Below are positions 49,437 through 60,351 of a DNA stretch of 64,000 bases, one piece after another (within the stretch, counting starts at the first letter, position 1; each line of letters starts with the position of its first letter). The stretch is taken from assembly GCF_001687305.1 (NCBI RefSeq), contig NZ_LZRK01000003.1, forward strand, positions 248,001-312,000. Reading direction: 5' to 3'. This stretch comes from Actinomyces vulturis. GTDB lineage: Bacteria; Actinomycetota; Actinomycetes; Actinomycetales; Actinomycetaceae. A program made the position numbers and the translations under genes. The notes beneath the pieces are model-generated. The model had not been told where the DNA came from. It saw nothing but the letters and a program-made list of their open reading frames with translations, and did not search any database.

Positions 49437-50456
49437 TCACTCACTCTTAGCAGTCAGTGCCCAAGGAACGATCGTCCCCAGCCCCTTGGTCACTACTTCG
49501 TGACACCGCTCCACATCATAGCGTTCACTAAGATCGCTGCGTTCAATGGCCCGCGCCGTCGATTCATCCATCCGAATACCACCAGGAGGTGCAGTATCAA
49601 CGAGACGTGAAGCGAGGTTCACGGTGGGCCCGAACACGTCCCCACTCCGCGAAACCACACGACCATAGACGAGCGAGGCACGAACGAGAATCATTTCGGG
49701 GCCACGCTGGAGTTCGTCGACGAGAGCAGTCACAACATCGGCTGCGGTGGTGAGATCATCAGCAATGTACATCACGGCGTCACCAATGGTTTTGACGACT
49801 CGAGCACCACGTGAGGTCACCACATTACGTGCGGTGTTTTCGAAGTCTTGAAGTAGATTGGTGAGGTCTTTTTTCCCCATGCGCTGAGCTTTTTGGGTGA
49901 AGGAGACGATGTCAACGAACCCCAATGCTCGGGTGAGCGGGTAGTAATCGGGACCAGCCTCTTCGGGACCACGCTGAGCAACTTCAGAATCCGTACGCCC
50001 GAGTAGAGCTGCCATGTGACGCTTCCAAGCATAAGTGAGTTGCTCGGTAAGTGCGGGAACCATCTCGCTCATATGGTCAAGCACCACAAGGCGTGCTGAA
50101 GTGTCATCCAAACTCAGGCGGCGTGAAACGTCACTGACAAGGGCTTCGAGCTGCCAAAGAACAAGACGATCCATGGTGAAGGACAGGGCGCGCAGTAATT
50201 CACTGGAGGTGTCTTCATCAACAGCATGTGACGTCACCAGGTTGCTGACATTTTTCAACGCGTGAACATCCGCATCGGTGAACGCGGGACGGTCCGGGGG
50301 AATGTCAGCAAAACCCATGGAACGCCAGAATTGCTGGGCTTGGGTGACACTGACACCTGCTTTATTGGCAAGGTCGATGAGAGTAAGGGTCCGCTCGCCG
50401 CCCAGTAGGGCGTACTGGTGCCCGGTCAGGGTCGATTCGGGGTTGGTTAAGTCCAC
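49437..50456 (-). CDS. Class III adenylate cyclase, Rv1264/Rv2212-like
   Basis: A 339-residue soluble cyclase. Residues 1 to about 165 are a helical regulatory domain that begins like a MerR-type helix-turn-helix (TLIDLANKAGVSVTQAQQFW), the layout of the mycobacterial Rv1264 and Rv2212 autoinhibited cyclases. The catalytic domain follows: FVDIVSFTQ and IGDAVMY hold the two metal Asp residues, VVKTIGD has the Lys that selects adenine, and FGPTVNLASRLVD supplies the transition-state Asn and Arg. So it should make cAMP. GTG 50456 is favoured by a -10 box six bases upstream; longer starts run back into birA. It sits just after birA on the same strand. Confidence 0.9.
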   Translation of the reverse strand: MDLTNPESTLTGHQYALLGGERTLTLIDLANKAGVSVTQAQQFWRSMGFADIPPDRPAFTDADVHALKNVSNLVTSHAVDEDTSSELLRALSFTMDRLVLWQLEALVSDVSRRLSLDDTSARLVVLDHMSEMVPALTEQLTYAWKRHMAALLGRTDSEVAQRGPEEAGPDYYPLTRALGFVDIVSFTQKAQRMGKKDLTNLLQDFENTARNVVTSRGARVVKTIGDAVMYIADDLTTAADVVTALVDELQRGPEMILVRASLVYGRVVSRSGDVFGPTVNLASRLVDTAPPGGIRMDESTARAIERSDLSERYDVERCHEVVTKGLGTIVPWALTAKSE

Positions 50457-50462
50457 CGCGTA

Positions 50463-50468
50463 AGAGTA
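50463..50468 (-). promoter_or_regulatory. -10 box for a leaderless mRNA (adenylate cyclase)
   Basis: On the minus strand TACTCT, six bases (TACGCG), then GTG at 50456. It gives the cyclase its own promoter in the 19-base gap after birA. Confidence 0.5.
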
Positions 50469-50475
50469 GCGCATA

Positions 50476-51522
50476 TCACAACAGTGGTGCAGGTTCCGCT
50501 TCCCCTGCACGCCGAACATAAGCCACATCCCCCGCACCAACCTCAACACGTCCTTGTCGCGTTTGAAGAACGAGGGCTGGCGAAATGCCCACTGCTCGCC
50601 CCGTTAGTGTCCCCGAGGGGGTATTGACACTAACATCACGACCAAGCGTCCGTGAAGTACGCTCAATCTCCTGACGGATTGCACTCATTGGCTCGTCGTA
50701 CTCCCAGTAACACTGCTCAAGGTGAGTAACACGCTTGGCGAAGTGGCAACACAAGCGCGCACACACATCCTCGGCTGTAACTTGCACTCCATGAAGTGCA
50801 AGAGAGGTAGCCCAAGGGACGGGAAGTTCCTGAGGTGTTTGCGTCACGTTAATGCCAATACCAACCACGACACATGCCCCCATTCGCTTTTTCCACCCCT
50901 CTTCGTGTCCATGATCTGTCATTGATTGGTGTGGGTTTGGGAAGTAGACATCAGTGAGTATTCCGGCAATTTTGCGGTCTAGCCCCCAGCCAGGAATCCG
51001 TTTATCCGCATCCTTATCGTCAGTTAAGGAGGAAACAACGAGAACATCATTAGGCCATTTCGTCATGACGAGATTGTTGACGTCACTTTCCATACCGCTA
51101 GCCAGACCACCGGAAGCATCCACGTGGTCACCAGCATCCTTATCACGATAAGAAGTCCCACTCCCCTGATGCGAGAAAGGCCGGTTTTGTAAAAACTCAG
51201 CAACCGTGTCACGTACAGCTAGGCCAGAAACAATCGGAATCCACGGCAAATAGTGTGATGGCAAGGCGGGGCGAAGGACGGTAGACAGAAGTACTGAGGA
51301 GTCCGGCGTCGTGGTCCAGGTATGAGTGCCTCGTCCGCGTCCTGCGGTCTGGTGACGAGCGCGCAATCCACTGAGATGAGGCCACTGTTCAACGGCCCCA
51401 AGATTAAGCGTTCCGTCCGTGTGCGTAAGTAACCTATGAAGATCAGTCTGTGTCGAGCCCGTTTCATCAACAATAGTGACTCGAATGGGAGTGGTTGGCT
51501 GAGTGGGGGCGCTGGTGGTCAC
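50476..51522 (-). CDS. birA: Biotin--[acetyl-CoA-carboxylase] ligase
   Basis: A 348-residue biotin protein ligase without an N-terminal DNA-binding domain, so a ligase only. VDETGSTQTDLHRLL and ARHQTAGRGRGTHTW (the biotinyl-AMP loop) are at the N-terminus, LVMTKWPNDVLV holds the catalytic Lys, IAGILTDVYF and VVGIGINVTQTP follow. About 35 extra residues sit between the RGRG loop and the KWPND motif. It would attach biotin to the Lys of the large carboxylase encoded on the other side of maf. GTG 51522 has a -10 box six bases upstream; its promoter is divergent from maf. Confidence 0.93.
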   Translation of the reverse strand: MTTSAPTQPTTPIRVTIVDETGSTQTDLHRLLTHTDGTLNLGAVEQWPHLSGLRARHQTAGRGRGTHTWTTTPDSSVLLSTVLRPALPSHYLPWIPIVSGLAVRDTVAEFLQNRPFSHQGSGTSYRDKDAGDHVDASGGLASGMESDVNNLVMTKWPNDVLVVSSLTDDKDADKRIPGWGLDRKIAGILTDVYFPNPHQSMTDHGHEEGWKKRMGACVVVGIGINVTQTPQELPVPWATSLALHGVQVTAEDVCARLCCHFAKRVTHLEQCYWEYDEPMSAIRQEIERTSRTLGRDVSVNTPSGTLTGRAVGISPALVLQTRQGRVEVGAGDVAYVRRAGEAEPAPLL

Positions 51523-51528
51523 GTGTGA

Positions 51529-51534
51529 ACTCTA
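51529..51534 (-). promoter_or_regulatory. -10 box for a leaderless mRNA (birA)
   Basis: On the minus strand TAGAGT, six bases (TCACAC), then GTG at 51522. Confidence 0.55.
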
Positions 51535-51548
51535 TCGGGGAAGTTCAG

Positions 51549-51554
51549 TACTCT
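51549..51554 (+). promoter_or_regulatory. -10 box for a leaderless mRNA (maf-carboxylase operon)
   Basis: TACTCT, six bases (GGTCTT), then GTG 51561. Only 14 bases separate it from the divergent birA box. Confidence 0.55.
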
Positions 51555-51560
51555 GGTCTT

Positions 51561-52244
51561 GTGTTAGTTCTTGCCTCTCAGTCCTCCGGTCGTTTAGCCA
51601 CCTTGCGTGCTGCAGGTATCGATCCGGTGGTACGCGTGTCTGGCCTTGATGAACCTGCGGCCTTACGCTCTTTGGCTGATGAGTTAGGCCACCGCACAAC
51701 GCCTGCTGAGCAGGTGGCGCATCTAGCTCAGAGCAAAGTTGTTGACGTTACACAGCAGTGGATTGCTGATGGCGGGCAGGCCTCATGCGAGTTTCAGCCT
51801 GCAACGATGCTTCCAGATGGTCAAACAGTGCTTGTGGGCTGTGATTCCATGCTGGAGTTTGAAGGCCAGGTGTGGGGGAAGCCCACGAATGCTGAGGATG
51901 CAGTGCGCCGGTGGCGTCTCATGAGTGGTGCCCAGGGTACTCTTCATACGGGCCATAGTGTGGTTGTTCTTGATGAAAACAACCGAATGGTGGGCCAGCC
52001 TCATACGGAACTCTCTCAAGCGATCATTCATTTCGCCAAAGTGAGCGAACAAGAGATTACTGACTATGTAGCCAGCGGTGAGCCCCTGTGGTGTGCTGGA
52101 GCGTTCACCATCGATAACCTTGGTGGAGCTTTTGTTTCTCGCATCGAAGGCGATCACCACGGCGTTGTGGGAATCTCTTTGCCTTTACTTCGAACGATGC
52201 TCGCTCAGCATGGCATTGTGTGGACCTCGTTGTGGGCGCGCTAG
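51561..52244 (+). CDS. maf: Maf family nucleoside triphosphate pyrophosphatase
   Basis: A 227-residue Maf/YhdE protein that hydrolyses non-standard or excess dTTP/UTP-type nucleotides. The N-terminus LVLASQSSGRLATLRAAG is the family signature, VGCDSMLEFEGQVWGKP holds the catalytic Asp region, and GAFTIDNLGGAFV the C-terminal motif. GTG 51561 starts exactly at the conserved N-terminus. Its stop TAG overlaps the GTG of the carboxylase by one base, a common actinobacterial pairing of maf with acyl-CoA carboxylase genes. Confidence 0.93.
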   Translation: MLVLASQSSGRLATLRAAGIDPVVRVSGLDEPAALRSLADELGHRTTPAEQVAHLAQSKVVDVTQQWIADGGQASCEFQPATMLPDGQTVLVGCDSMLEFEGQVWGKPTNAEDAVRRWRLMSGAQGTLHTGHSVVVLDENNRMVGQPHTELSQAIIHFAKVSEQEITDYVASGEPLWCAGAFTIDNLGGAFVSRIEGDHHGVVGISLPLLRTMLAQHGIVWTSLWAR

Positions 52245-55200
52245 TGACATTTCCTATATTTCTCGACGCCGTGACGTCGCTTCCCGCCTTCCCCAAGACT
52301 ACCCAGACGGTATTCATCGCTGCTCGCGGGTCGGTGGCTGCTCGTGTGGCTCGAACTGTTCATGCGTTGGGGTGGCGCGCTGTTGGCGTATTCGTCCCCA
52401 TGGATCGCGATTCGACGTGGGTACAGTGCCTCGATGATGCACTAGAAATCAGCAGTTATACCGATATTGCATCTCTCGTTAACTGTGCTCAGCGACTGGG
52501 ATCGGACATGGTCCACCCTGGAGTTGGCTTTGTTGCTGAGGATCCCTATTTTGCCTTATTGGTCAACGAAGCAGGGATGACGTGGCTAGGGCCGTCAGCA
52601 TCAGCTTTGTCCTTATGTTCGGATAAGGCTTCGTTAGCGTCACTTGCTCAGGAGTGCGGCCTTCCTGTTCCTGCATGGAAGGGCCCTTTCTCATCTTTAA
52701 GTGATGCCGTCAGCGCAGCTCAATCTATCGGCTTTCCGTGCGCGCTCAAGCGTGTCCGTGGCGGCGGCGGCCGGGGCGTCTCAATGGTGAATTCACCTGA
52801 TGATATGGCCTTGGCATGGCAGGCGATGGGTCTCAATGAGGAACCTTCCGACGGGGCGTTGGTTCAGCAGGCACTTCCTGATTGCAGGCATATAGAAGTG
52901 CAGATTTGCGTTGATGGGACGGGTAGCGTTCTCAGCGCCGGAACACGTGAATGCAGTGTCCAGCGTCGTTGGCAGAAAATCATGGAGTGCGCACCAGCAC
53001 CTTGTCTCAGTAGCGCGTTTGTTACTCGCTTGGAGCAGGCTGCTGCTCAGTTAGTCACGGCAGCAGGTTTGTGCGGTGTGGCCACAGTGGAATTCCTTGT
53101 TCCTGTGGTGTCTGAAGAATCATCCGCTCACCCTTGTAAAACGAATCTATTCGATAACACGGCCAATATCTCCGGTACTGGCGATGGTGTCCGATTCGCA
53201 AGCATCACACCGTCAGAAACTCTTGAAAACGCTTATTCGCTTCGGGAACAGGTGCCTCAGCACACAACGCCCCATAGCGACTTCATGGTTCTAGAGGTCA
53301 ATGCGCGACTCCAAGTGGAACATGGGGTAACTGAGGAAGTCACGGGTATTGATCTTGTTGCACTCCAGTGCGCCATATCCCAAGGGCATACTCTCTGTGA
53401 ACTCTTTCCGCACATCGACAGAGATATCGACTCTGACGCTTCGCTTTACCATTTGGAGAACCACGGCGTCGCTGTGGAGGGACGTATCTATAGCGAAGAC
53501 CCTCTCACGTTAGTGCCCTCATCGGGTGTTATTGGTCATCGTCATTGGCCTGAATCTATTGACGAACTACTGGCAGTCAACACGAACTTCAACCAGTCGG
53601 TCGACAAGTATCGTGAGCTGACAGGTGTCAAGAGCAATTCTCATGAGTCAGCTCGTCGTCCCCAGAGTTCTGATCGTCTCCGCATTGATTCAGCTTGTCG
53701 TCCCCAAAGTTCTGATCGTCTCCGCATTGATTCAGCTCTCTCGCCTGGCGATCGTATTCGCTCTGATTTTTCTGACCCGCTGGCTTTATTCATCTGCTGG
53801 GCACCTAACCGCGAGCGCGCATGGGATTTGTTAGCGGCCATCTGCGATCGCACAGTTGTTTGTGGAGTGGACTCTTTAGCACCACTTGTTTCCTGGCTTG
53901 CAGAGCATCGTGATGTTCGTTCTGGCCGAGTCACTCCTTCGTGGCTCATGCACTCTGGTCTACGCGCATTCCATGACGCTGAGGGAATAACGCCCCGTTT
54001 CGACGTTGAACCTGAGGCTAATCTCAAACACACGTTGGCTTCTACCACCCCCGCCCCTTTATCTCCTCCCACTCCGCTGGCTCCCGTCAAGGTTCAGGCA
54101 CCTATTGATGGCATCGTTGTCGCTCGTTCAATCCAGGGTGAGTTAGTCAGGAAAGGTGACATTCTCGGCGTGATCGAAGCGATGAAGATGCGTCTAACTC
54201 TTGCCGCACCATGTGATGGCTGGTGCACGCATCCTTTCCCCGAAGTGGGTTCAACTGTCAAAACAGGTGACGTCATGGCTTCTATTTCTCCGGTATCACC
54301 AGATACTCTGCCTGGTAAGGACACTAATCACTCTAAGCATGTTGCCCCTAGGCCCCAAGGTGCCACCGCTTCCTATGCTTCGTCCTCTCCACGCCCCCAA
54401 CACACCAGTGCACGGAAAAAAGCCCACGATCTTGTCGATGAGGGCACGTTAAGTGGTGTTGTAGATGATGACAGTGTCCTAACCGCCTATGCTCGGATTA
54501 ATGGCATTCCAGTGGCATTGTGGATTCAAGATCCCACTTTCCAAGGTGGAACCATCGGTTTACGCGGATCTCGACGCGTTGCTCGCTTGATTGCTCATGC
54601 TGCTGATAAGAATTGGCCGGTGGTGTCCGTTCTGGATGGTGGCGGTGCCCGGATTGATGAAGGGACCGATGCGCTCAGCGGTGTCGGCCTAATTTTGTCT
54701 GCTATCGCGCATGCTTCATCTATTCTTCACATTGCGGTGGTGACTGGTGCCGCAGCCGGTGGGGCAGCCTACGCTCCTGCTCTAGCTGATGTAGTGGTCA
54801 TGGTGGAAGATAACTCGTCAATGTTTCTCACTGGTCCCGCGGTGTTATCTCGTGCTACGGGTGAGAAGGTCAGCGCGCAGGAACTTGGCGGCGTCCCCGT
54901 TCATGCTCAGTCTGCTGGAACTTGTCATCTTCGTGCACATAGCGATACTCATGCTTGGTCGTTGGTTCGTGACCTGGTCAACTTCGCTCCTTTGGGAGGC
55001 AATCGTTTCCGTTTCATTCCATCGAGTGCTTCAGCCGATGTGATGGTGACCGATTCAGCGATTTGCTGCGTCGTGCCTGACGATCGTTCCGTGCCCTACG
55101 ACGTTCACAGCGTCATTTCTTCCCTCTGTGATCGTGGTGATTTCACACAGTTGCGTCCTGAGTTCGTTCCCGCAATGGTGACTGGATTTGGCCATATTGG

Positions 55201-56308
55201 TGGGGTTGCTGTCGGTATTGTGGCTCCTAATCCGGGCGTAGGAGCAGGTGCAATTGTTCCTGAAGCCAGCGACAAAGCTGCTGACCATGTTCGTCTGTGC
55301 TCTGATCTTGGCCTTCCACTCCTCACAATTGTTGATACACCAGGCTTCATGCCAGGGGTTACTGCTGAATCTGGTGGCGCGATTCGTCATGGGGCCCGAT
55401 TAGTTGAGGCCTATGCGCTCTCTTCTTCGCGTCTCATCACATTACTGACCGGTAAAGCTTATGGTGGTGCTTTCGTTGCTTTGGGCTCTGCGGCGCTGAG
55501 TAATTCCCACGTTCTGGCTTGGCCCTCAAGCCGCGTCGGCGTGATGGATGCCGCGAGCGCCGTGCGGGTGACTCAGCGCAAGTATTTATCTCACCTTGCT
55601 CATACTGAAGGGGACGACGCCACCCAACGCGCTGAGGCTCAGGCTATTGCTGAGTATGCATCCCGTGAGAGTCCGGATGTGAGCGTCAAGTTGGGGTGGA
55701 TTGATGAGGTCATCGATCCTTCTCAGACGCGTTCGCGGTTACGTTCGTTGCTTCGTCAAGGGTGGAAGGGCGCAGTCGTGGGTCGTGGGCGTCACCCTGG
55801 AGATGGGTGGTTGGGTTGCTCATGCGGAGCTACCCACTGGGGCTTGAACGGCGCTGCAGGGATTCTTGTATGGCGGCGAGTCAGTAGTGGCGTTGAGGTG
55901 TTGCTCCAGTTGCGCGCTCAATGGACTCATCATGGGGGCACATGGGGTATTCCGGGGGGCGCCATATGTGACGGAGAGTCCGCCCTTGAGGGTGCGTTAC
56001 GCGAGTGCTCTGAAGAAACTGGCATTAATAGGGCAGACCTTGTTGTAGGTCCCTGCCATCGTCAGGATCATGGTGATTGGTCGTATTCGACTTTTGTTGC
56101 CGAACATGTTGGGGATTCTGACGCCGCACTGTCACTTCCAGGAGATGGTGAGTCGTCAGCGTTGGCCTGGGTTCGTCTCTGTCCAGATTCAGAAGGTTGT
56201 TACTGGCAGGAGCCATCAGAACCGTTGATTCCTGCGATGTCTGCCGTGTGGGATGAGTTGGCTGCTCTTCTACCACAACCAAACGATCAGGCATTTTCTG
56301 CTTCCTGA
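52244..56308 (+). CDS. Single-chain acyl-CoA carboxylase (BC-BCCP-CT) fused to a C-terminal Nudix hydrolase
   Basis: A 1354-residue multi-domain protein. Residues 20 to about 590 are biotin carboxylase: HPGVGFVAEDP, the glycine loop VRGGGGRGVSMV, QRRWQK (Lys245), Glu283, and LEVNARLQVEHG with Glu351. A 56-residue insert separates Glu283 and Glu351, and a 14-residue tandem repeat lies near 470-497. Biotinyl carrier domain: VIEAMKMRL, target Lys648. Carboxyltransferase domain about 726-1184: TGAAAGGAAYAP, VDTPGFMPG, TGKAYGGAF. The tail from 1190 is a Nudix hydrolase with a CSCGATHWG lead and a full Nudix box (G1239, E1245, R1253-E1254, E1257-E1258, G1260). It should carboxylate an acyl-CoA; which one is unclear. 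The Nudix role is unknown. Confidence 0.93.
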   Translation: MTFPIFLDAVTSLPAFPKTTQTVFIAARGSVAARVARTVHALGWRAVGVFVPMDRDSTWVQCLDDALEISSYTDIASLVNCAQRLGSDMVHPGVGFVAEDPYFALLVNEAGMTWLGPSASALSLCSDKASLASLAQECGLPVPAWKGPFSSLSDAVSAAQSIGFPCALKRVRGGGGRGVSMVNSPDDMALAWQAMGLNEEPSDGALVQQALPDCRHIEVQICVDGTGSVLSAGTRECSVQRRWQKIMECAPAPCLSSAFVTRLEQAAAQLVTAAGLCGVATVEFLVPVVSEESSAHPCKTNLFDNTANISGTGDGVRFASITPSETLENAYSLREQVPQHTTPHSDFMVLEVNARLQVEHGVTEEVTGIDLVALQCAISQGHTLCELFPHIDRDIDSDASLYHLENHGVAVEGRIYSEDPLTLVPSSGVIGHRHWPESIDELLAVNTNFNQSVDKYRELTGVKSNSHESARRPQSSDRLRIDSACRPQSSDRLRIDSALSPGDRIRSDFSDPLALFICWAPNRERAWDLLAAICDRTVVCGVDSLAPLVSWLAEHRDVRSGRVTPSWLMHSGLRAFHDAEGITPRFDVEPEANLKHTLASTTPAPLSPPTPLAPVKVQAPIDGIVVARSIQGELVRKGDILGVIEAMKMRLTLAAPCDGWCTHPFPEVGSTVKTGDVMASISPVSPDTLPGKDTNHSKHVAPRPQGATASYASSSPRPQHTSARKKAHDLVDEGTLSGVVDDDSVLTAYARINGIPVALWIQDPTFQGGTIGLRGSRRVARLIAHAADKNWPVVSVLDGGGARIDEGTDALSGVGLILSAIAHASSILHIAVVTGAAAGGAAYAPALADVVVMVEDNSSMFLTGPAVLSRATGEKVSAQELGGVPVHAQSAGTCHLRAHSDTHAWSLVRDLVNFAPLGGNRFRFIPSSASADVMVTDSAICCVVPDDRSVPYDVHSVISSLCDRGDFTQLRPEFVPAMVTGFGHIGGVAVGIVAPNPGVGAGAIVPEASDKAADHVRLCSDLGLPLLTIVDTPGFMPGVTAESGGAIRHGARLVEAYALSSSRLITLLTGKAYGGAFVALGSAALSNSHVLAWPSSRVGVMDAASAVRVTQRKYLSHLAHTEGDDATQRAEAQAIAEYASRESPDVSVKLGWIDEVIDPSQTRSRLRSLLRQGWKGAVVGRGRHPGDGWLGCSCGATHWGLNGAAGILVWRRVSSGVEVLLQLRAQWTHHGGTWGIPGGAICDGESALEGALRECSEETGINRADLVVGPCHRQDHGDWSYSTFVAEHVGDSDAALSLPGDGESSALAWVRLCPDSEGCYWQEPSEPLIPAMSAVWDELAALLPQPNDQAFSAS
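53651..53734 (+). repeat. 42-bp in-frame tandem duplication
   Basis: Two adjacent 42-base copies (53651-53692 and 53693-53734) with two differences, each coding for 14 residues (A-R/C-RPQSSDRLRIDS). It lies in a linker of the carboxylase, just before the end of the biotin-carboxylase region. Confidence 0.85.
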
Positions 56309-57030: not shown

Positions 57031-60000
57031 TTACTGGCACACCACAACATTATTGGGGTTGTAGTGCACGGTAAGTGACTCATCAGGAAGTGCGGTGCCA
57101 TCATGGCTACGCTTTCGCATGATGGTGACGGTGAAGCCTGGTTCACCATCGGGTTGCGGATAGCATTCGTCACCAGAACGAACGATGGTGTCGTAATCAA
57201 TGATGTTGCTTCGCTCGCTGGTGGTGATGGATACGTCGTAGTACGGGGTTGACCACAAGCGAACATTGACACGGTTGTTTTCCACCCACGCTTGAATCAA
57301 CACAGGGTAAGGGGTGGAGTTTCTAAACTTTACGTCTTTTTCTCCAGTCCAAATGGTTGCTTCACGGCCTTCGGGATAGCGCGAGATGTACTGAGAATGC
57401 GGGGTATGTTCGATATCGTCCATGCCTGCTTCGTAGGCTGCGTTGAACACTGTGGTGCCTACTTGACTCAAGCCTCCACCCATCGCGTCAATGTGTTCTT
57501 CAGCCACAATGACCCCGGCAGCAGCAAATCCGTGCTCCTCATCTACGGTGCCTAGCGCTTCGTTGACGGAGAAAATATCGCCAGGTTGGACGATTTTGCC
57601 GTTGATTTGTTCACAGCCTTGAACCAGGTTTTTATCACGGTTGGGATCTGACGTGAAAGGAGTGGAATACTCCCCCACGATGTTGACGATTCCCATGCTC
57701 CGAAGGTCATCTTCAGAGACTACGGGGGCTTGGAAGGTCAAGGGGATCGTCACCTGTCGTGAACCGGGGACTACTGACTCATAACTGCGATTGGCCTTAG
57801 TGTCATCGAGGGTAATGCCTGCGCCAACTAGTTGGGCGGCAGAGTCTGTTCCCCCTGTGCTTCCCGCGATCACAATGTTTTGAGCGAGGGAAGCCAGGTC
57901 GATCATCCTCCCTGGTTTTCCTGATGTAATACGGGGGGCTTGGTTTTCTCCGCCGTCAACAGCCCATTGGGCATTGCTTCCTGGCATATTCAAGGAGTCG
58001 CCGTAGGTGGCGCTAACAAGATCTCCGAGTTGGGTGGTATCGAGGGAAAGAACGAGAGTGTTGTTCTGCTCATGAACACTAGCCATCGACACAAGTTGAT
58101 CAGGCGTCAGCATAAGTGGTGGCAAGGCTGCAGGCGCCTGACCAGCATCTCCTGCTGATATGTCCGGAGGTAGAAGCGTAATGGGGGCAGACAAAACCGG
58201 CTCCACTACATCATGGACGAAGACTTGTGCAGCCGTGTCAGTAATCGGCGGATCAACTGTTCCTTCGGGCAGGGCCATGACGATGCCATGATCACCACTG
58301 CGGACGCTCACGTCATCGTCACCGAATGGTTGAGGTTCGCTTGTGGCATTAAGTGGCCATGTTGTGGCAAGAATGCCCAATGTACGGGGGATGTTTACAC
58401 CCACACCGCTACTTCCTGGAGTGATGATGGCTTGTCCGTGGTCTAAGGTCACCGAAGCGTTAGTCACGCCCATGGACAGTACTGGAAGATCGGCGTCTAG
58501 AGCAGCATGTAGACCCGTGATATCGACGCTTGTACGCACAGGCTGGTGAGCGGTGGTGAAAGCGCGACGGGCCAACGTCACCGGGTTGAGGGTGAAGTCA
58601 ATGAGCGGCGACAAGGTAGATTCCGTATCGAGGGTGAGGTTGAGCGTGGCGGGATGCAGAATGGCACTGCCGCCTTGTGCTGTCACGGTCAATGGTTGAC
58701 TCAGCCGTGGAGTGAGCTCAGTTTCTATGCGTTGGCGTGCCTCAGCCTTGGATAATTTCCCTATGTCCACACCGGAAATCACCGTGTTGGCGGGGGCATG
58801 TCCACTGAGGGCAACAGCAGCACCGGAGTAGGCCAGAAGGAAAAGAAAAACAACTCCCACACCAACGTGTACGGTTCGTCCTAGCGTGTGCCAGCGGTGT
58901 CCTAAGGCTTGAGCCAATGCCAGAATTTTGAAACCTGCAATGGAACAAACACGACGGAAAGATCGCACAACTTGCTGGAACGGTTGGGCTGAAGGTGACG
59001 CATGATGCGTCTCTTTGACTGGCCTGGTAGGAAGTTCTGACTCACGCCATACGCGGCGGGGAGCCTGCACGTTGTCAGAGGGTTTCGAGCAGTGGCGGGT
59101 GGGGTGAGCGTCTGCGTGCCCCTGTAAAGGGCGAGGCGAAGGCGTTCTTGTATGTTGCGATATTGGCTCTATTGACGTTAATGATTCATCGTCATGTTCA
59201 GAGCAAGAGCAGTCGGGCTGGGAGGATTGGCCCGCGTTGGACGGCTCAGCATGTACGCCAGGCTCGTGGCCATTGTGGTCACTGCCTGAGTCTTCTCGCA
59301 AGGAAGAAGCCCAAGATGATTCTTGACAATCCGGTAACGACTGCTGTTGCAGGTCAGTGGCGCTTGATTCCTCAGTTCGCTGCTTTACAGACCTAGAAAC
59401 ACGGTAGGCATGTGGGTCTCTGGTTTCACCAGAGTCGATGACGTGAACAGGTGATGTGTTTGAGCATTGACTGTGCCTATCGTCCCGATCAGCAGGCAAA
59501 AAGTCTTGAGATACACCGTGATTCTGGGCTGGTTTTGGATTATTCGCAGATTCAAGATCATTTGGTTGAACTATTTGCGTGTCCGCATCATCGATAGTGC
59601 CATTGAGGCAGAGATTCTGGGGTTCCACCGCAATGTCCTCATGGCCATGGTGGTCCGAAGATTTGTGGCCTGCAGTGTTCAGTGATTGTCTCGTCTGCTC
59701 TGGTCTGAGGATGGACATGTCACTATGAGGCGTGAGGTGTGGGTCTTTATGGATATTGCTGCTCCCTTGACGACGAAGGTCTTTTCGGGAGAGGGGGCGA
59801 GATGAGGCAAGGCAGGGTTCAGAGGGAGTTTTTGGGTATAGAGATTCAGAGGGAGTAGATGGGGCAGGCGCTGAGTGCGGTGTGGGTCGGGATATTACTC
59901 GACTGGTGGCTTCTCTCTCGTGCAGAGGCGTGGTTTCTGTTGAGGATGTTTCTTGGGATATTTGACGCCGTTGCTTGTCTTCCGCGTCATTGTCTACTGG

Positions 60001-60351
60001 GTCCTGAGAATCCTGAAAAGCGCAAAATTCAGTTGCAGATAGAGCGTTTTCAGTGAGTCGTTCTTGTTGACGGCGTTGCCTGCGGCTGAGCACGGGAGTG
60101 TGGATGATGGCGCTGAGTTCTTGGGAAACATCATTCGAAGCCTCCAGGACATCATTGCCCTGGGAAGCTTTTGTACGAATCGGCGCTGAGGGAGGGCGAG
60201 GTGTTCGTCGCTGCGGTTGAAAAGAGGGCTCAGGCTGACGAGGAGAATTACTGTCGTTCGGAGGGGAGTCAATCGAAGCAGGCCGACGCACTCGCTTGGG
60301 TCTCCTGACGGAAGCAGGGCGACGCTCGTAGGGTGATAGTCCAGAGTTCAC
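57031..60351 (-). CDS. VanW family cell-surface protein with long disordered cytoplasmic arm
   Basis: An 1106-residue protein. The first 470 or so residues are polar, rich in Ser, Pro, Gln, His and Arg, and probably disordered in the cytoplasm. One helix lies at about 495-518 (VFLFLLAYSGAAVALSG). Two PG_binding_4-like domains follow at about 530-850, and the VanW domain at about 870-1080, with NLVQGCEQINGKIVQPGD, AAGVIVAEEHIDAMGGGLS and QVGTTVFNAA. VanW proteins are surface proteins often near wall genes; activity unproven. GTG 60351 has AGGAGG eight bases upstream. The long arm suggests a link to cytoplasmic wall machinery (inference). Confidence 0.9.
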   Translation of the reverse strand: MNSGLSPYERRPASVRRPKRVRRPASIDSPPNDSNSPRQPEPSFQPQRRTPRPPSAPIRTKASQGNDVLEASNDVSQELSAIIHTPVLSRRQRRQQERLTENALSATEFCAFQDSQDPVDNDAEDKQRRQISQETSSTETTPLHEREATSRVISRPTPHSAPAPSTPSESLYPKTPSEPCLASSRPLSRKDLRRQGSSNIHKDPHLTPHSDMSILRPEQTRQSLNTAGHKSSDHHGHEDIAVEPQNLCLNGTIDDADTQIVQPNDLESANNPKPAQNHGVSQDFLPADRDDRHSQCSNTSPVHVIDSGETRDPHAYRVSRSVKQRTEESSATDLQQQSLPDCQESSWASSLREDSGSDHNGHEPGVHAEPSNAGQSSQPDCSCSEHDDESLTSIEPISQHTRTPSPRPLQGHADAHPTRHCSKPSDNVQAPRRVWRESELPTRPVKETHHASPSAQPFQQVVRSFRRVCSIAGFKILALAQALGHRWHTLGRTVHVGVGVVFLFLLAYSGAAVALSGHAPANTVISGVDIGKLSKAEARQRIETELTPRLSQPLTVTAQGGSAILHPATLNLTLDTESTLSPLIDFTLNPVTLARRAFTTAHQPVRTSVDITGLHAALDADLPVLSMGVTNASVTLDHGQAIITPGSSGVGVNIPRTLGILATTWPLNATSEPQPFGDDDVSVRSGDHGIVMALPEGTVDPPITDTAAQVFVHDVVEPVLSAPITLLPPDISAGDAGQAPAALPPLMLTPDQLVSMASVHEQNNTLVLSLDTTQLGDLVSATYGDSLNMPGSNAQWAVDGGENQAPRITSGKPGRMIDLASLAQNIVIAGSTGGTDSAAQLVGAGITLDDTKANRSYESVVPGSRQVTIPLTFQAPVVSEDDLRSMGIVNIVGEYSTPFTSDPNRDKNLVQGCEQINGKIVQPGDIFSVNEALGTVDEEHGFAAAGVIVAEEHIDAMGGGLSQVGTTVFNAAYEAGMDDIEHTPHSQYISRYPEGREATIWTGEKDVKFRNSTPYPVLIQAWVENNRVNVRLWSTPYYDVSITTSERSNIIDYDTIVRSGDECYPQPDGEPGFTVTIMRKRSHDGTALPDESLTVHYNPNNVVVCQ

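Follow-up and report, generated by a model that had tools for sequence, protein, structure and literature searches.

The window analysed here, a 64,000-nucleotide stretch of the Actinomyces vulturis genome (source assembly of 2.20 Mb in 10 contigs), encodes a single chain of 1354 residues in which biotin carboxylase (BC), biotin carrier (BCCP) and carboxyltransferase (CT) domains are followed by a complete Nudix domain. Carboxylase and Nudix lie in one open frame of 1300–1535 codons in 11 of 49 Actinomyces genomes, confirming that the fused chain is real and common to several Actinomyces species, and not a sequencing slip. Its composition suggests a bifunctional protein, and the reading that we favour, with more confidence than doubt, is that a BC-BCCP-CT short-chain acyl-CoA carboxylase and a RenU-type Nudix hydrolase are made together and tethered, with mostly independent activities. 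Single-chain carboxylases are known; the Nudix-tailed carboxylase chain appears to be new and, in the samples covered here, limited to one genus.

Architecture of the fused chain

Translation of window positions 52244–56308 yields a single uninterrupted frame that opens with GTG (the program-made list of open reading frames places the start at 52220 instead, giving 1362 aa). All six Pfam domains of the chain score over the curated cut-offs (Table 1), which bears out the claim of an earlier, sequence-only reading that BC, biotin-carrier and CT domains share one 1354-residue chain with an intact Nudix hydrolase. The same domain order, sought in other genomes, recurs in all 11 fused chains, each of which matches the six Pfam families (E ≤ 0.001). 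The chain thus contains, in sequence, the parts of a biotin-dependent acyl-CoA carboxylase, namely, a BC with ATP-grasp motifs, an MKM carrier (EAMKM in the window copy) and a CT of the PccB/AccD type. All 11 chains retain the AMKM, GGGGRG and LEVNARLQxEH motifs and the Nudix box, AMKM occurring once per chain. In the tail of the window copy, the Nudix box fits the pattern GX5EX7REUXEEXGU except for C at the first U position, and the sequence THWGLNGAAG is present, so that the HWG..GAAG lead is indeed kept, as the sequence-only reading had noted.

The window chain is the most diverged copy, with 44–47% identity to the other 10 chains, and carries two BC inserts of its own, the second of which adjoins a tandem repeat.

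Table 1 Features of the fused gene and of its surroundings in the window
Feature	Position	Strand	Basis and remarks
Adenylate/guanylate cyclase-like gene, locus anchor	49437..50549	-	Pfam PF00211; 49/49 genus genomes
birA-like biotin protein ligase, divergent	50476..51522	-	Pfam PF03099, PF02237
maf, directly upstream of the fused gene	51495..52244	+	Pfam PF02545
Fused BC-BCCP-CT acyl-CoA carboxylase with C-terminal Nudix hydrolase, 1354 aa	52244..56308	+	Translation, Pfam
Biotin_carb_N PF00289, residues 20-122	52301..52609	+	Pfam
BC ATP-grasp region CPSase_L_D2 PF02786, residues 127-289; GGGGRG glycine loop at 173	52622..53110	+	Pfam; motif in 11/11
BC insert, residues 293-347 (55 aa), just before LEVNARLQVEH	53120..53284	+	Absent from the other 10 chains
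BC motif LEVNARLQVEH, residues 350-360	53291..53323	+	LEVNARLQxEH in 11/11
Second BC insert, residues 433-469 (37 aa)	53540..53650	+	Absent from the other 10 chains
In-frame tandem repeat of 42 bp, 2.3 copies	53644..53738	+	Looked for in the window copy only
Biotin_carb_C PF02785, residues 485-568	53696..53947	+	Pfam
Biotin_lipoyl PF00364, residues 631-681; biotinylation motif AMKM at 646-649	54134..54286	+	Pfam; AMKM in 11/11
Carboxyl_trans PF01039, residues 740-1176	54461..55771	+	Pfam, E 1.5e-111; PccB-type PDB matches
Nudix domain with lead GDGWLGCSCGATHWGLNGAAG, residues 1185-1348	55796..56287	+	Pfam PF00293 at 1204-1311, E 2.2e-12; RenU 6uuf, E 3.8e-16; alignment
Nudix box GAICDGESALEGALRECSEETGI	55958..56026	+	Relaxed pattern in 11/11, the final G replaced by S in one copy
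VanW-domain protein, 1106 residues, long low-complexity N-terminal part; downstream of the fused gene	57031-60351	-	Pfam

Distribution in Actinomyces and selective constraint

The BCCP-CT part (query residues 553–1179, E ≤ 1e-100) is confined to the same 11 of 49 genomes and is never found without the tail. A Nudix of the tail type is present in 16 of the 49 (E ≤ 1e-12), including five in which it stands alone straight after maf (G017, G044, G047, G055 and G062). The other 33 genomes show neither a carboxylase chain nor a Nudix in the 1.8–4.8 kb after maf; birA is present in all 33 of them and maf in 32. In a separate check of six loci (L092–L097) out of at least 80, one, that of Actinomyces urogenitalis DSM 15434 (L095), carried the same fusion. 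It should be noted that all genome samples are draws and not complete sets of species.

Selection was gauged from four pairs of closely related chains (8 of the 11); the window copy lacks a partner this close. The dN/dS ratios were 0.17–0.38 for the BC core, 0.11–0.35 for CT and 0.18–0.40 for Nudix, compared with 0.64 and 0.76 for the CT-Nudix linker in two pairs (the linker is too short in the other two). For the C-terminal part of BC the range was 0.15–0.57 and for the 70–71 codons of BCCP 0.22–0.99, the top value in each case coming from the pair G020/G024 (70 codons for BCCP). Ratios that are low in the carboxylase core, CT and Nudix and higher in the linker indicate that both ends of the chain are under selection and that the join is freer to vary.

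Kinship of the carboxylase domains

The CT domains of the 11 fused chains form one clade (support 100/100), apart from those of ordinary Actinomyces enzymes and of the rest of the order, in a tree of 11 fused, 11 ordinary Actinomyces and 13 other order sequences (two of them identical). The BC domains likewise form a single clade (100/100) beside 11 ordinary Actinomyces and 10 other order sequences. Both trees were flagged for possible long-branch attraction and unusual residue composition, which makes the position of the clade uncertain. Branches within the fused CT and BC clades are longer than those of the ordinary acyl-CoA carboxylase, that is, the fused chain evolves faster. The close groupings within the CT clade (G052 with G043; G007 with G060 and G018; G020 with G024; G012 with G039 and G008) recur in the tree of the cyclase, BirA and Maf sequences of the locus, which fits vertical descent.

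The best PDB matches of the CT are chains of the PccB/AccD5 type (E down to 3e-94). In the family sample, CT matches were obtained in 75 of 151 genomes (E ≤ 1e-84), with about 50% identity within the genus only and 36–41% in the rest. Across 296 genomes of the phylum, a single other CT passed E 1e-92, at 40% identity and in a frame of 521 codons, and across 396 phylum genomes the Nudix model matched 27 other proteins (E ≤ 1e-25), in frames of 158–600 codons. Longer Nudix frames, of up to 959 codons, occur in the family and order samples, and in the loci examined BC lies in a separate frame. No frame joining a carboxylase to a Nudix was seen outside Actinomyces in the family, order and phylum samples examined.

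Genomic context and origin of the Nudix tail

In all 11 genomes the fused gene comes after maf, with a divergent birA alongside; in the window, the maf stop codon and the GTG start of the fused gene overlap by one base. The Nudix is also present in wider samples that include members of the genus (family, 65 of 151 genomes; order, 187 of 297), and three sets of these loci (26, 25 and 51, overlapping in a few genomes) were inspected for neighbours. Among the 26 family loci with short flanks, accA lies just upstream on the same strand in 11 and a convergent BC gene is present in four; Maf and Nudix share one frame in five (L079, L085, L086, L087 and L091), Maf is adjacent in two, and four have no recognised neighbour. 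The 25 best-scoring order loci comprise 19 in which Maf and Nudix form one frame (L193, L195, L196, L198–L204, L206, L208–L214 and L216) and six with adjacent accA. With longer flanks (51 loci), maf-accA-nudix are arranged on one strand in 16, representing four families (f1, f8, f12 and f13) and including two with a wider gap (L221 and L231); single loci show a convergent BC gene, Maf only, Maf-Nudix in one frame (L064) or a BC gene 4.8 kb downstream of Nudix. In 31 of these 51 order loci, the Nudix has neither an acc nor a maf neighbour.

The maf-accA-nudix loci of relatives indicate that the fused chain occupies the place of accA and that its tail corresponds to the nudix gene of that locus. 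Together with the genomes in which Nudix alone follows maf, they support the proposal of the sequence-only reading that the tail derives from an adjacent gene. We suggest that the fusion arose in an ancient actinobacterial locus of the type birA / accD-maf-accA-nudix, through loss of the boundary that separated nudix from the carboxylase gene upstream of it. Both the Maf-Nudix and the carboxylase-Nudix fusions join Nudix to its upstream neighbour. In the Nudix tree the 11 fused tails lack a supported grouping, and a single clade is not rejected (AU p 0.51). The cyclase/BirA/Maf tree implies six changes, of unspecified direction, among three states (fused, Nudix alone, none) and places the window genome first to branch within the genus, on a long branch and at an open fork.

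Nine of the 51 loci, from families f1 and f13, have a VanW gene within 2.5–8 kb of the Nudix; in eight of the nine it lies downstream and on the opposite strand.

Predicted carboxylase activity

By its domains, the BC would carboxylate the biotin carried on the AMKM motif at the expense of ATP and bicarbonate, and the CT would transfer the carboxyl group to acetyl- or propionyl-CoA, yielding malonyl- or methylmalonyl-CoA. Acyl specificity in Streptomyces PccB is set by residue 422, the D422I variant being reported to take acetyl-, propionyl- and butyryl-CoA (PMC7835884). At the corresponding site all 11 fused chains have valine and all 11 ordinary Actinomyces enzymes isoleucine; valine shares its hydrophobic character with the isoleucine found in acetyl-CoA enzymes. 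Methylmalonyl-CoA mutase was detected in none of the 49 genus genomes (the control search was positive in 8 of 14 known genomes), which makes malonyl-CoA the likelier product; propionyl-CoA catabolism through this mutase was accordingly rejected as a role. The likeliest role of the carboxylase, judged from these residues and gene contents, is carboxylation of short acyl-CoAs, chiefly to malonyl-CoA.

In the BC motif QRRxQK, the variable position is S, A or W in the 11 fused chains and H in 10 of 10 locus enzymes of the order. Loss of a catalytic histidine was considered and dropped, because the ordinary Actinomyces enzyme departs there too: 10 of its 11 biotin carboxylases (L172–L182) read QRRNQK.

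Relation to known carboxylases and Nudix proteins

Several known systems share parts of this architecture. The carboxylase LCC (PDB 4rcn) is likewise a single chain, matching over BC and CT, but has 1093 residues and no Nudix match. The fused chain has the BC-BCCP-CT order of the single-chain LCC; kinship, however, argues against membership of that group, since its CT matches 4rcn far more weakly (E 3.7e-37) than PccB/AccD5-type CTs. Saccharopolyspora SACE_4237 is another multidomain single-chain bacterial acyl-CoA carboxylase, acting on acetyl- and propionyl-CoA; unlike the fused chain, it is described as a homodimer of about 200 kDa with a eukaryote-like central region, and the word Nudix is absent from the text of that paper (PMC6491548). 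Closest in position and CT type is the accA/accD carboxylase encoded at the maf locus in the order (AccD5/PccB type), which nevertheless consists of separate subunits with no Nudix on the chain, the fused BC and CT falling in clades of their own.

Among Nudix proteins, mycobacterial RenU (formerly MutT3; Rv0413/MSMEG_0790; PDB 6uuf) has the GDGW..WG..GAAG lead in common with the tail but is free-standing and encoded beside pknG, whereas the fused gene lies between maf and the VanW gene. The Maf-Nudix single-frame genes of related families contain the same Nudix subfamily, with Maf and not a carboxylase as the upstream partner. No paper on a Nudix-tailed carboxylase was found among open PMC papers, covered in part by titles and abstracts, and the words carboxylase, fused and RenU are all absent from a survey of the Nudix clan (PMC5389931).

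Predicted activity of the tail and significance of the fusion

The Nudix box and a Pfam NUDIX match in 11 of 11 chains assign the tail to the Nudix hydrolase superfamily. Its closest solved sequence is that of RenU (63 bits over 156 residues), a modest match, although the next best of the 15 PDB sequences reaches only E 3.1e-05. RenU is reported to prefer ADP-ribose, FAD and NADH, not NAD+, and to show far lower activity towards CoA and nucleoside triphosphates (PMC4401782). The sequence-only reading had envisaged both ADP-ribose-like compounds and CoA or acyl-CoA as substrates of the tail. The former are retained, by homology to RenU only; editing of CoA is not supported, given the poor activity of RenU on it. 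The tail was also rejected as a CoA pyrophosphatase on its score of 15.8 bits with NCBIfam NF007980 (cut-off 134), a result of little weight, as none of the 22 NCBIfam models listed for the tail reached its cut-off. The tail may thus independently cleave ADP-ribose, NADH or FAD-like NDP-X compounds, and the free Nudix of the five carboxylase-less genomes suggests a function independent of the carboxylase.

Genes that stay fused across species often encode functional partners. In the present case, the partners are the enzyme of the first committed step of fatty-acid synthesis and a nucleotide-cleaving enzyme with a mycobacterial relative that acts on redox cofactors. The tail could accordingly be a built-in regulator or editor that removes ADP-ribose, NADH, FAD or a CoA-type modulator and ties malonyl-CoA output to the redox state or substrate pool. 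The strict co-occurrence of BCCP-CT with the tail, the adjacency of the same Nudix to accA in several families and the reported action of RenU on NADH and FAD are in keeping with such a role; the five genomes with Nudix but no carboxylase, the Nudix joined to Maf in 19 of the 25 best order loci and 5 of the 26 family loci, and the CoA model scoring far under its cut-off speak against it. Regulation of the carboxylase by its tail therefore appears unlikely, a real but minor possibility. A bolder version, to which we would assign a rather low probability, is a redox-gated carboxylase whose tail would destroy NADH, FAD or ADP-ribose in its vicinity so that malonyl-CoA production follows the oxidative state, the accA-maf-nudix cluster, with its fusions to either neighbour, reflecting an unrecognised link between lipid precursors and nucleotide house-cleaning in actinobacteria. 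With the fused chain, the idea that the supply of lipid precursors is linked to the clearing of cofactors becomes directly testable on a concrete protein.

Conversely, the carboxylase might be a passenger, the chain being kept for its Nudix, and perhaps also for its structure, and carboxylation being weak or lost. An ordinary accA/accD pair encoded elsewhere in the window genome (L172), the fast evolution of the chain with the private inserts of the window copy, and the 33 of 49 genomes that lack both carboxylase chain and Nudix are compatible with this scenario. Nevertheless, the active-site motifs and the biotin site are intact in 11 of 11 chains and the dN/dS of the BC core and CT is well under 1 in all four pairs, and we consider loss of function improbable. 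Still more doubtful is that the fusion is partly formal, an internal start giving rise to a free Nudix protein as well. In each of the 11 genes, the 60 codons before GDGW include one or more in-frame GTG or TTG codons, and in the window a GTG seven codons upstream is preceded by a sequence matching 4 of 6 Shine-Dalgarno bases; however, ATG is absent from those 60 codons in all 11, and neither position nor match is conserved, the best match, of 5 of 6 bases in a single genome, lying far from the codon. A conserved internal start was therefore rejected. The chance that a sequencing or assembly error joined two genes is negligible, since the frame near residue 1190, which the sequence-only reading had held in doubt, is single in 11 of 49 genus genomes and a frameshift artefact is thereby excluded. 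On balance, a bifunctional chain with largely independent activities is the reading that we retain.

The Nudix lead (55799-55861) carries a C-x-C-x3-H motif, CSCGATH in the window, which is invariant in the 11 fused tails and absent from RenU; it could be a metal site.
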